This document shows positions 18,025 through 46,818 of a DNA stretch of 64,000 nucleotides, in pieces. The position numbers were made by a program, and so were the translations under genes. Numbering within the stretch: the stretch's first letter is position 1; each line of letters starts with the position of its first letter. Below the pieces are notes generated by a model, which saw nothing but the letters and a program-made list of their open reading frames with translations, searched no databases and had not been told where the DNA came from. Origin of the DNA: Bradyrhizobium sp. ORS 278 (lineage in GTDB: Bacteria; Pseudomonadota; Alphaproteobacteria; Rhizobiales; Xanthobacteraceae); contig NC_009445.1 in NCBI RefSeq assembly GCF_000026145.1, positions 124,001 to 188,000 of the forward strand. The letters run 5' to 3'.

Positions 18025-18264
18025 TTCTATATCCTAGATTTCACGCCTGCATATTGCAGACCGGCGATATCGAGATGTCGCAGATCTCATCCTGTCGGCT
18101 TCCGGCACGATGCCAGCCAACACGAAGCTTCGCTCGCAAAGAGCGTGGGGCTATTTTAAGATGTCCCATGCACGAACTGCCCGTCGTGCCAGTCTGTCGC
18201 AGACTCCACGCTTGTGCCGTCGGGCAAATCACCTGCACATTTCCGCGCGTCCCTGCTGCCGCAT

Positions 18265-18662
18265 GAGGGGCGTGTCGCGACCGTCACGAGACGTTGGCAG
18301 TGGGATGCGATGGGCGTGTGTCGGCGCGGCGTGATTGAGTTCGCGCGGACGAACGGCGATGCACGCACGGTCAAGTCGCGCGGTCCTGATATCCCGATGC
18401 TGATGTCAACTCACGGCGGAGCTTTGGCTTCGCGTGGGGATGGTGGCCAGCAAGCCGGCGCACCAGGGAGAACGCGAAGCAGCCGTTAAGACCGTTGCGC
18501 AGGGAGGGCCGGATGAACCGGCGCGTACCTGTGGTTCCTGCCGCCAGCATTTTTTCTCGCTGGCGGGCCATGGGTGCAGTCGGCACCCGGCTCTCCCTGC
18601 GCCCTCAATGCTGATGAGGGCGAGACGAGAAGCATGGCTCGGGCGCGGAATGCGTCGCGAGG
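18265..18662 (+). ncRNA. Structured dispersed element, copy 1 (candidate ncRNA)
   Basis: About 398 bases homologous to 46050-46445. Stems seen directly: 18387-18393 with 18402-18408 (TGATATC/GATGTCA); a long closing stem 18497-18512 with 18587-18602 (GCGCAGGGAGGGCCGG/CCGGCTCTCCCTGCGC); inside it 18541-18548 with 18559-18566 (CCGCCAGC/GCTGGCGG) and 18572-18577 with 18583-18588 (GGGTGC/GCACCC, which shares two bases with the closing stem); then GCCCTC/GAGGGC at 18601-18621. The two copies differ at paired positions in ways that keep pairing. The plus-strand assignment follows the direction in which I read the stems. Transcription is not shown. Confidence 0.55.
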
Positions 18663-18812
18663 CTGAGGATGTTTGCCCGAGATTTTTCAAGTAGCAGCAC
18701 GCTGTTCGCGATGACGAGAATGATCCGCATGCAAGACGCCGATTGCGACCGCAGACGCGTGGCGCTCGGTCGTCGCGCGATTGAGCCAGGCTCTCGCGCC
18801 AGCGACGGTGCA

Positions 18813-19182: not shown

Positions 19183-19269
<87 letters not shown>

Positions 19270-45283: not shown

Positions 45284-45379
45284 GCGTATCTACAATGCGC
45301 TATCTGGGTGACGTAGGCTGCGTTGAACGAGCCTTCCGAACTCGCCTGGCGGCGTGAACCCGATCGTACAGGCATCGCT

Positions 45380-45823
45380 CTATCTTTCTCTGATGCTTGG
45401 ATCGGCTTCTAGCGCCACGCGTTTGGGTAAAGCGACCTGAGCGAGACCACTCGTTTTTGAGATGTAGACGACCCATTCGTCGCCCACCCTCGGTATTACA
45501 TAGCCGAGATCGCATGCTGCCGAGCCTTGGCCACCGTAGAGGGTGACTTGGCTGCCGGAGTATGCGCCTCGAAGCAAACTCTTCTTAGTGGCCGTGGCTT
45601 GCCATGGGTGCGCGTCGGAGAATTGCTCACCAGTGTAGATTGCTTGTTCTACATGAACCAACAGGACCGCAGTCACGTCGTCTCTGCGATAAGCGTCGGA
45701 CACGCGCTCCTTCGCCCCCATGAACACTCGACAGGCGCTTGCTGGTTGCACCATCAGCAATAGTGCAATGAATGCTCCGATGGTTCGCGTGAAATGCTGA
45801 AGGCCTTTCTGGAGCCGGGTCAT
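45380..45823 (-). CDS. Secreted hypothetical protein, possible TIMP/NTR-like fold
   Basis: A 147-residue exported protein. The signal peptide is about residues 1-30 (FIALLLMVQPASA), so the mature protein would start with cysteine (CRVFMGAKERV). That resembles NTR/TIMP-like domains, in which the N-terminal Cys is structural. A second Cys is in AACDLGYV. The identity is tentative and the function unknown. One hand-counted 60-base line is about 52% GC, clearly lower than its neighbours. It stands alone and is followed upstream by structured element copy 2. Confidence 0.65.
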   Translation of the reverse strand: MTRLQKGLQHFTRTIGAFIALLLMVQPASACRVFMGAKERVSDAYRRDDVTAVLLVHVEQAIYTGEQFSDAHPWQATATKKSLLRGAYSGSQVTLYGGQGSAACDLGYVIPRVGDEWVVYISKTSGLAQVALPKRVALEADPSIRER

Positions 45824-46049
45824 GGGTCGGTTCTCAGCTTTAGAGTGGCAAGTAGACCCTCTTTCTAACTGCGATATCTGCGCATGTCAGCTGGCATGAC
45901 ATGTCGGTTGAGATCCGCCTCAACGGACTGCTTTGTACTCGCGTCATTCGAAGGCGCATTCGCTATCCTCACTGAGGCGACTTCTCGAAAAGAAGTCTAT
46001 TGCGTTTTTTCAGAATTTATGGTTTCATCCGCACATCCCGCCTCAACGA

Positions 46050-46445
46050 GAGGGGCGTTGCGCGCGATCGTCACGACACGCGAGGTGGGGAGGCGATGGC
46101 CGCGGTCTGCCGCAGCGTGTCTTCGGGCGCGCCGACGAACGGCTGGACCGTGGACGTGAAGTCGCAGCGTCCTGACACCCCGATGCTGGTGTCACCCGCG
46201 CAATGCGCAAGCATTGTCGCGGCATTGTGGCCAACAAGCCCGGCGCACCAGGGAGACTGCGTATAAGCGTGAAGACCATCGCGCAGGGAATGCCGGTTGT
46301 TCTCGGCTGAACCTGTGGTGACTGCCGCCTGCTTTTTTGTCTGCAGGCGGGCCATGGGTGCGGCCAGCATCCGGCATTCCCTGCGCCCTCTCGATTTTTC
46401 GGAGGGACATGGCTGGAGCACGACTCGGGCGGATGCGCCGCGAGG
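46050..46445 (+). ncRNA. Structured dispersed element, copy 2 (candidate ncRNA)
   Basis: Homologous to 18265-18662. Stems: 46173-46179 with 46188-46194 (TGACACC/GGTGTCA); the closing stem 46281-46296 with 46371-46386 (GCGCAGGGAATGCCGG/CCGGCATTCCCTGCGC, 16 perfect pairs); 46325-46332 with 46343-46350 (CCGCCTGC/GCAGGCGG); 46356-46361 with 46367-46372 (GGGTGC/GCATCC, which shares two bases with the closing stem); and CCCTC/GAGGG at 46386-46406. Relative to copy 1, pairs change together (for example A-T to T-A in the inner hairpin). Transcription is not shown. Confidence 0.55.
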
Positions 46446-46532
46446 TCGCGGAGCCGTGGGCGGGGCTGTTTGAGATGTGAATCGGGGGAATTGCGCGGAG
46501 AGTCCGCCAGCTGTCGCCGCGCGGACGGTGCG

Positions 46533-46577
46533 CTCCCTCTCCCCGTTTTTCACGGGGAGAGGGCTGGGGTGAGGGGC
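46533..46577. repeat. CTCCCTCTCCCCG palindrome, left member of facing pair
   Basis: CTCCCTCTCCCCG-tttttca-CGGGGAGAGGG then CTGGGGTGAGGGGC. It is nearly identical to the reverse complement of 46682-46726. Confidence 0.85.
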
Positions 46578-46681
46578 AGCCGCGCGGGTGGTGCGACTAG
46601 TGAAGCTTGATAGTCGCTCATACGGATCGCGAGGCGCGGGATGAGTGAACGGAGCACTTCTCCAACACTTCCCGTGCGGTG

Positions 46682-46726
46682 GCCCCTCACCCCGACCCTC
46701 TCCCCGTGAAGAACGGGGAGAGGGAG
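46682..46726. repeat. CTCCCTCTCCCCG palindrome, right member of facing pair
   Basis: GCCCCTCACCCCGACCCTCT followed by the CCCCG-tgaagaa-CGGGG hairpin and AGAGGGAG. Inverted relative to 46533-46577, with about 104 bases between them. Confidence 0.85.
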
Positions 46727-46818
46727 TGCAGCGGCGCTTGGGGAACGGCGGGTATCCAACTCAGAGGAGCAACGTCGAACGTGACCGAAGCGCGATCGCA
46801 ACGTTGACGTTGCCGCGC

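Follow-up and report, generated by a model that had tools for sequence, protein, structure and literature searches.

A dispersed family of putative structured RNA genes in Bradyrhizobium and its relatives, with an orientation-dependent spacing of copies

What kind of element is a hairpin-rich intergenic sequence of some 400 bp that stands twice, in one orientation, within 64 kb of a Bradyrhizobium chromosome, and what might it do there? The window analysed here is a stretch of 64,000 nucleotides from Bradyrhizobium sp. ORS 278 (C1:124001-188000 of genome G000, one contig of 7,456,587 bp). An earlier note on this DNA had described a structured element present twice, at 18265-18662 and 46050-46445; both copies, their shared orientation and the three paired stem changes quoted between them are found in the sequence, and "twice" is right for the window but not for the genome, in which a covariance model detects at least 121 copies.

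Architecture and fold of the two copies

In copy 1, all parts of which lie on the + strand, alignment (A2) and covariation place a putative structured RNA of ~426 nt at 18238..18663, its ends inferred from the alignment. This is somewhat longer than the interval of the earlier note, which begins within the first helix, the 5' strand of which lies slightly upstream (at ~18248 in copy 1 and ~46034 in copy 2), and which leaves out a promoter-like signature upstream of that strand, reading CTTG-N11-AAATCA in copy 1 (18211..18231). The arms of an upstream hairpin lie at 18387-18393/18402-18408, and a long helix supported by covariation (helix 13, 18497..18602) surrounds an inner hairpin and a U-rich loop, the arms of the long closing stem being at 18497-18512/18587-18602 and those of the inner hairpin at 18541-18548/18559-18566. 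Copy 2, also on the + strand, has its structured RNA at 46030..46457, the ends again taken from alignment A2, and a degenerate signature (ATTG-N11-AATTTA) at 45999..46019, in the same position as in other copies; it is followed by GGGCTGTTTGAGATGTGAA (46463-46481), within which lies the boxA-like tail GCTGTTTGAGATGTGAA at 46465..46481 on the + strand. A tRNA-Leu(CAG) gene (19183-19269, - strand) is found ~0.5 kb downstream of copy 1, and 3' of copy 2 there is a 68-nt inverted repeat pair (46526-46733).

Compared with 100 dinucleotide-preserving shuffles each, the two copies fold more stably (copy 1, z -5.07; copy 2, z -4.87). Across 31 copies, a shared branched fold of ~430 nt comprises 110 pairs in 17 helices, with 96.5% of 3383 cells paired, as against 37-48% when the structure is slid by 1-3 columns. 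Changes on both sides occur in 51 of the 110 pairs (shuffled mean 28.9) and in 279 cells (90.8 when shuffled), and the covariation score is 0.314 (0.174 when shuffled); each of these values was reached in 0 of 500 shuffles, so that a lack of covariation, which the earlier note had named as telling against a folded element, is not what the alignment shows. Helix 13 alone has both-side changes in 7 of its 16 pairs, with 98.6% of its cells paired. Since this structure was predicted from the same 31 sequences, 30 pairs of the G000-derived structure were also tested on 35 copies from other genomes, aligned without the structure: 97.8% of 1047 cells pair, double changes fill 61 cells against 2-7 in slid versions, and G.U exceeds A.C by 157 to 7.

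A DNA hairpin would be expected to show G.U and A.C in about equal numbers, so this excess argues for selection on the + strand RNA, which is likely to be the folded form. When helices are picked by Watson-Crick pairs alone the test is weaker (G.T 42, A.C 16, one of seven helices running opposite in direction), and this, together with the many palindromes, the REP-like repeats often lying 3' of the element and the fact that none of the 121 copies overlaps a gene called by our own gene finder, is what a REP/BIME-like hairpin repeat acting as DNA would have in its favour. Such a repeat is nonetheless very improbable given the G.U excess in independent copies, a branched fold of more than 400 nt, and a promoter signature and boxA in register. 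The "folded RNA or DNA hairpin array" of the earlier note is supported in that sense, covariation and the G.U excess favouring the RNA alternative. Its observation that no reading frame is conserved extends to the whole family: in any one of six frames the RNA can be read through without a stop in just 6 to 16 of the 121 copies, somewhat more than in mononucleotide shuffles (3.6-5.3) and far from a shared frame, which rules out a protein-coding element.

The Rfam search that had been suggested for the element found no family matching it in the window, where a tRNA alone was detected, and a search of six loci at E<=1 returned just tRNA and, in L002, a plant miRNA match of 47 bits against a gathering score of 137. 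With no match at gathering score in the window (Rfam 15) or the six loci, a known RNA family was rejected, and the Rfam models of group II introns and HEARO RNA were likewise without a match there. The assignment of both copies to a family of predicted structured non-coding RNA genes is supported.

Copy number, distribution and transcription signals

A first BLASTN search of G000 gave matches in all of the best 40 of 147 candidates, at 72-100% identity. A covariance model of the 3' domain (R1, 143 positions), which matches copy 1 at C1:142459-142601 (window 18459-18601) and copy 2 at C1:170244-170385, gave 149 matches in the best 150 of 7300 candidates, 121 of them at 92-165 bits and the other 28 at 37-54 bits on the opposite strand of copies, because the element is palindromic. 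The copy number of G000 is taken as at least 121 in 7.46 Mb, 59 copies being on the + strand and 62 on the - strand. A broader model (R2), with copies counted at 62 bits or more and opposite-strand matches at 45 bits or less, yields 35 copies in G015, 54 in G177, 44 in G005, 37 in G192 and 45 in G019, and this range between species, from 35 to at least 121, implies that most loci are dispensable. In a first BLASTN search over the genus 24 of 25 genomes, our own included, had a match, and R1 under strict filters, with the best 16 candidates per genome, found the element in at least 68 of 198 genomes and at least 18 of 47 genera of the family. The likeness to Bradyrhizobium sequences mentioned in the earlier note is borne out by the named records among the matches listed (80 of at least 120), which are from Bradyrhizobium, Rhodopseudomonas, Nitrobacter and metagenome-assembled genomes named only to class or phylum. 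Phage records and plasmid records, each searched with one copy, gave no match.

A sample of 1.41 Mb centred on intact copies holds 90 of them and one 5' relic; further intact copies were not found in it, and all 88 further matches of the 3' profile are the opposite strand of known copies, the genome-wide R1 search covering full-length matches only. The 398 kb within the four largest gaps of G000 gave no match to R1, R2 or either half-profile, and no relic. The sole truncated relic seen (G000:C1:6800754-6800898, - strand, in L209) consists of ~145 nt from the 5' part, including a promoter-like motif, and is situated 2.7 kb from an intact copy, on that copy's 5' side.

Anchoring on the first helix succeeded in 117 of the 121 copies of G000, and in these, counted from the GAGGGGCG strand, CTTG or CTTT is most frequent at about -54..-50, and AAATYA is so at -39..-35. 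CTTG-N11-AAATCA was found at 25 places at elements and 1 elsewhere (1.41 Mb, both strands, 90 copies), and sites near the sigma70 consensus can be seen by eye at the signature position in four loci from other genera (L081, L086, L094 and L097); a simple sigma70 scan called no site at copy 2, the motif of which is degenerate. One of the two rRNA operons of G000 has CTTGAC-N9-AAATCA at -341 from the 16S gene, and the signature is absent before the second. The sites of the element also bear a loose resemblance to the RpoD-type promoters TTG-N(16-18)-TATA of Cuklina et al. 2016 (PMC4842269), in the main text of which the words repeat and repetitive do not occur. By its sequence, the putative promoter signature resembles that of a stable RNA.

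Within 200 nt downstream of the core, the motif TSTTTGANA is present in 22 of 121 copies in G000, 12 of 30 in G015, 2 of 30 in G177 and 5 of 18 copies from other species or genera, against a background of 0.08-0.18% of random 200-nt windows. Both rrn leaders of G000 carry GGGCTGTTTGACAAGTGAAG ~0.2 kb before the 16S gene and fit the pattern GCTGTTTGANANNTGAA; with up to 1 mismatch allowed, this pattern matches the window just once (0.02 expected), at the tail of copy 2 (46465..46481). A minority of copies match the boxA-like site of their own genome's rrn leaders; we read the tail as a putative boxA, which suggests transcription of the stable-RNA type. No terminator was identified for the copies. 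As far as sequence can establish it, the element is a family of dispersed RNA genes, each predicted to have a promoter signature and an untranslated RNA of ~400-430 nt with a branched fold, and a minority of copies to carry a boxA sequence like that of rRNA leaders.

Spacing, orientation and mobility

The gaps between copies in G000 have a CV of 0.53 against 0.99+-0.09 at random, and the largest measures 168 kb where random placement gives 330 kb on average (0 of 20000 for each); this even spacing is significant in G000, G015 and G177, and not in G005, G192 or G019. Gap length depends on relative orientation (strand permutation, 0 of 20000), the medians in G000 being 22 kb where 3' ends face each other (convergent, 32 neighbour pairs), 66 kb in direct pairs (57) and 76 kb where 5' ends face (divergent, 32), and the order convergent < direct < divergent is found in all six genomes (P 0 of 5000, 0.013, 0.003, 0.001, 0.028 and 0.10). 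Convergent, direct and divergent pairs closer than 50 kb number 30, 12 and 5 in G000 against 24.4, 48.7 and 24.4 at random positions, and 15, 9 and 0 in the five other genomes pooled against 14.6, 29.2 and 14.6 expected (P 1.2e-5 for direct and 4.5e-7 for divergent pairs, convergent pairs being as expected). Close direct pairs are down to about a quarter to a third of expectation and divergent pairs to a fifth or none, and counts come close to expectation by 75-100 kb. The contrast between convergent and divergent pairs alone, which is unaffected by the surplus of same-direction neighbours, has P 2e-5 in G000 and 6e-5 in the five others pooled; genome by genome, four of the six show it significantly (P 0, 0.016, 0.006 and 0.028), and G192 (0.36) and G019 (0.14) do not. 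Copies exclude one another within ~50 kb on the promoter side only, strongly in G000 and in the five other genomes when pooled.

Among nine simulated insertion settings, the best had a 45-kb zone on the 5' side and one of 0-5 kb on the 3' side (rms z 1.15-1.34, against 4.5-5.0 for two-sided zones and random placement), and gave 44 direct neighbour pairs against the 57 seen. Recombination between copies was rejected as a cause of the spacing, as it should not separate convergent from divergent pairs, and search artefacts that thin neighbours would hit both kinds alike and so should not give the observed asymmetry. Local duplication is ruled out as the source of close pairs: neighbouring copies show no greater similarity than pairs drawn at random (mean similarity rank 62 of 120 over the RNA region, 59 with flanks), which points to dispersal genome-wide. 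Both rRNA operons of G000 (G000:C1:5053833 and 6694991) have a + copy 16-18 kb on their 5' side and break the rule; strong rrn-type transcription alone therefore does not set the zone, which would belong to the element itself and not come with every strong rrn-type promoter. In L392, the sequence after the 16S gene reads N.

In G005 (contrast 21/33, P 0.004) and G192 (20/26, 0 of 500), orientation follows the chromosome arm among copies of type B, which have a longer core of 148 nt or more, but not in the shorter-core subclass, with 11 copies in each of the two; if the contigs start near the origin, the orientation of type B would be co-directional with replication. Overall, orientation is arm-polarised in three of six genomes, G000 showing no such polarity (P 0.83). 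The direction of flanking genes has no clear link with the copies (28, 27, 27 and 16 of the 98 with both neighbours called), gene-strand polarity around them follows no consistent trend, single bins reaching ~2.6 standard errors, and GC skew does not switch at copies beyond random places (P 0.145; P 0.028 by a second skew measure). An alternative is that the many copies encode a regulatory or sponge RNA acting in trans, their arrangement being a by-product of genome evolution. The conserved fold, the promoter signature, the intactness of copies and the lack of a link with flanking gene orientation would all suit such an RNA, but orientation-dependent spacing is not predicted by a trans role and copy number differs 3.5-fold between species, so that we consider it improbable.

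Copy 2 lies between ada and gpmA, in an intergenic region of 1535 bp (45284..46818). At the gpmA loci scanned (the best 30 of 55 genomes with a match), none of 29 relatives has the element within 1.5 kb of gpmA, our own genome being the only holder among the 30 loci, and in the 27 relatives where ada could be placed the gap between the two genes is 38-1172 bp, and 240 bp or less in 24. Copy 2 is therefore most simply read as a lineage-specific insertion, absent in 27 of 27 resolvable relatives. Occupied and empty sites, the mark of mobility for MITEs and insertion sequences, were compared for copy 2 and point to its mobility; the ends of the insert are imprecise, and neither terminal inverted repeats nor a target duplication was seen there. 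A 147-aa ORF between ada and copy 2 (45380-45823, - strand) has foreign codon usage and a signal-like start, and is too big for most relatives' ada-gpmA gaps.

Other copies are older, with flanks that are shared between species. Among the flanks of 121, 30 and 30 loci from three species, 26 locus pairs share a flank; with direction preserved, the shared flank is the 3' one in 19 pairs and the 5' one in a single pair. Seventeen pairs were compared over ~20 kb, one of which (L068/L137) holds the element in opposite orientation; in the remaining 16, which were selected by a matching 3' flank, the 3' side is syntenic for 5-9 kb, whereas on the 5' side 7 lack any colinear stretch in the first 10 kb, and 9 regain homology at a distance of 0.5-4.8 kb from the core. 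On the 5' side of copies there are ORFs whose codon usage looks foreign, and the distance to the next native-codon gene, with a median of ~300 bp on both sides, has a 90th percentile of 1649 bp on the 5' side against 672 bp on the 3' side. Because the 5' flank varies at shared loci, the DNA adjoining the promoter side seems to be exchanged more easily.

This variable 5' side, the loss of 5' synteny in those 7 of 16 pairs chosen by their 3' flank, the foreign codon usage and the one-sided range of ~50 kb would be in keeping with copies that are start sites of a one-way DNA process (transfer, packaging or local replication) running some 50 kb into the promoter side. The failure of one copy to match any phage or plasmid record speaks against this explanation, as does the point that overlap of such zones need not be harmful, and we hold it to be quite improbable. 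A fixed cargo on the 5' side is ruled out, ten foreign-looking proteins scanned per library being heterogeneous, with a single methyltransferase match in PADLOC, and convergent pairs were not found to flank islands, ordinary genes lying between them (20 proteins, 5 of 11 pair regions). Several loci of G177 deserve mention: in L125, which is 95% identical to L138 over 1.7 kb, an ORF resembling an IS1182-type transposase, itself part of the 1.7 kb, runs up to the 5' border of the copy; and in L110-L138 and L092 palindromes, tagged CGTC/GTAG or of other kinds, follow soon after the last hairpin, by eye, in many of the 30 copies. At one intergenic site in two species (L374 of G015 and L387 of G177) the element stands in opposite orientations.

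On sequence grounds, the element is a non-autonomous unit of ~0.5 kb that spreads to sites between genes, and one-sided target immunity of such a mobile element is a close rival to the reading we prefer, that copies mark chromosome domains. In that rival, a MITE-like element would be moved by a transposase acting in trans, which is barred near an existing copy by immunity on the promoter side only, while the RNA is required for mobility or rides along. The lineage-specific site at gpmA, the genome-wide dispersal, the close resemblance of some copies (in 30 G177 copies, the top 30 of 380 locus matches reach 89-97% identity), the opposite orientation at L068/L137 and a ~50-kb range that is alike at copy numbers from 35 to 121 all favour it. 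Immunity at insertion would, however, spare about half of the direct pairs, where 12 of 48.7 and 9 of 29.2 remain, so that a constraint on the final arrangement explains these (small) numbers better; no terminal inverted repeats or target duplication were seen at the occupied gpmA site, the ends of which are imprecise, there are almost no relics, and copies that average 72% identity over the RNA region (60-97%) still keep the fold. On balance we find this rival possible but doubtful.

Possible roles and comparison with known systems

The reading we prefer, to which a probability of roughly 0.38 may be given, is that the copies are dispersed RNA genes, identified by sequence, which would act through their transcription as oriented marks of chromosome domains. 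Strong, antiterminated, untranslated transcription at each copy, the folded RNA, or both, might set up such a mark over ~50 kb on the copy's promoter side; a second copy within this zone would be harmful or not tolerated, leading to one-sided exclusion and, where copies are many, to even spacing. The transcript or its transcription would in this way act on the chromosome over ~50 kb. The arm orientation of type B, such as heavily transcribed genes also have, speaks for a domain mark, as does the intactness of copies (90 intact, one relic). Against the domain mark stand the two rRNA operons that break the rule, the dispensability of most loci, the restriction of boxA to a minority of copies, the second rrn operon without the signature, a contrast that reaches significance singly in four of the six genomes and even spacing that does so in three, arm-polarised orientation in three of six, the failure to identify a terminator, and the shortfall of direct pairs in the simulation. 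A rather unlikely extension would make the element a form of oriented chromosome punctuation, in which each copy, a mobile RNA gene resembling an rrn leader, would reserve ~50 kb on its promoter side against any second copy, and copies with facing 3' ends may lie close as paired boundaries.

Whichever reading holds, no description was found, in the open-licence literature that was searched, of these folded RNA genes, which number up to at least 121 in a genome of a well-studied group of soil bacteria. To our knowledge, no known repeat family follows a one-sided exclusion of ~50 kb. This arrangement gives a hint of a directional role in the organisation or marking of the chromosome, and the copies offer natural, replicated and oriented sites for studying how bacterial chromosomes are shaped by transcription or by RNA or, alternatively, how a mobile element measures distance in one direction.

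Several known systems resemble the element in part. In the target immunity of Mu and Tn7, a copy keeps others off over tens of kb on both sides; the distance-keeping is alike, but that of the element is one-sided and no transposase lies within it. REP325/naRNA4 of E. coli is a repeat-encoded, structured nucleoid RNA linked to chromosome architecture, which differs from the element in size and in the distribution of its copies, and for which we know of no oriented exclusion. The oriented loop anchors of animal chromosomes are loosely comparable with the punctuation outlined above.

The GTAG/CGTC-tagged REPs and Br-REP1 and Br-REP2, as described in PMC3733652, which covers small REPs, and in Hahn et al. 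2016 (PMC5082802), which treats the two Br-REPs and ten sRNAs of Bradyrhizobium, are like the element multi-copy, intergenic, palindromic and found in the same genera. They are, however, palindromes of 20-40 bp, whereas the element is a branched RNA of ~430 nt with a promoter signature, and its unit of ~430-520 bp with 17 helices rules out membership in any of these classes. Our sequence comparison with Hahn et al. covered the REPs: Br-REP1 has 17 matches in 15 of 392 loci, and in the three of these where it lies near a core of a 3-kb locus (L066, L078 and L118) the distance past the 3' end of the core is 110-180 nt; a search of the window for part of Br-REP2, allowing up to 3 mismatches, gave no match. 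Work on transcription-made domains and on conflict between SMC and transcription (PMC10948358, PMC5583512) likewise holds that transcribed units shape contacts and that direction matters; unlike here, a dispersed, dedicated and oriented element is not known to us from such work.

A further comparison is with the leader of rRNA operons and its boxA, the site of NusB-S10 antitermination: it has the same boxA-like sequence, and the element shares its promoter signature with one of the two rrn operons of G000. The element differs in having no rRNA after it, a different and longer fold between promoter and boxA, and copies that move, and its copies obey the exclusion that rrn operons do not.
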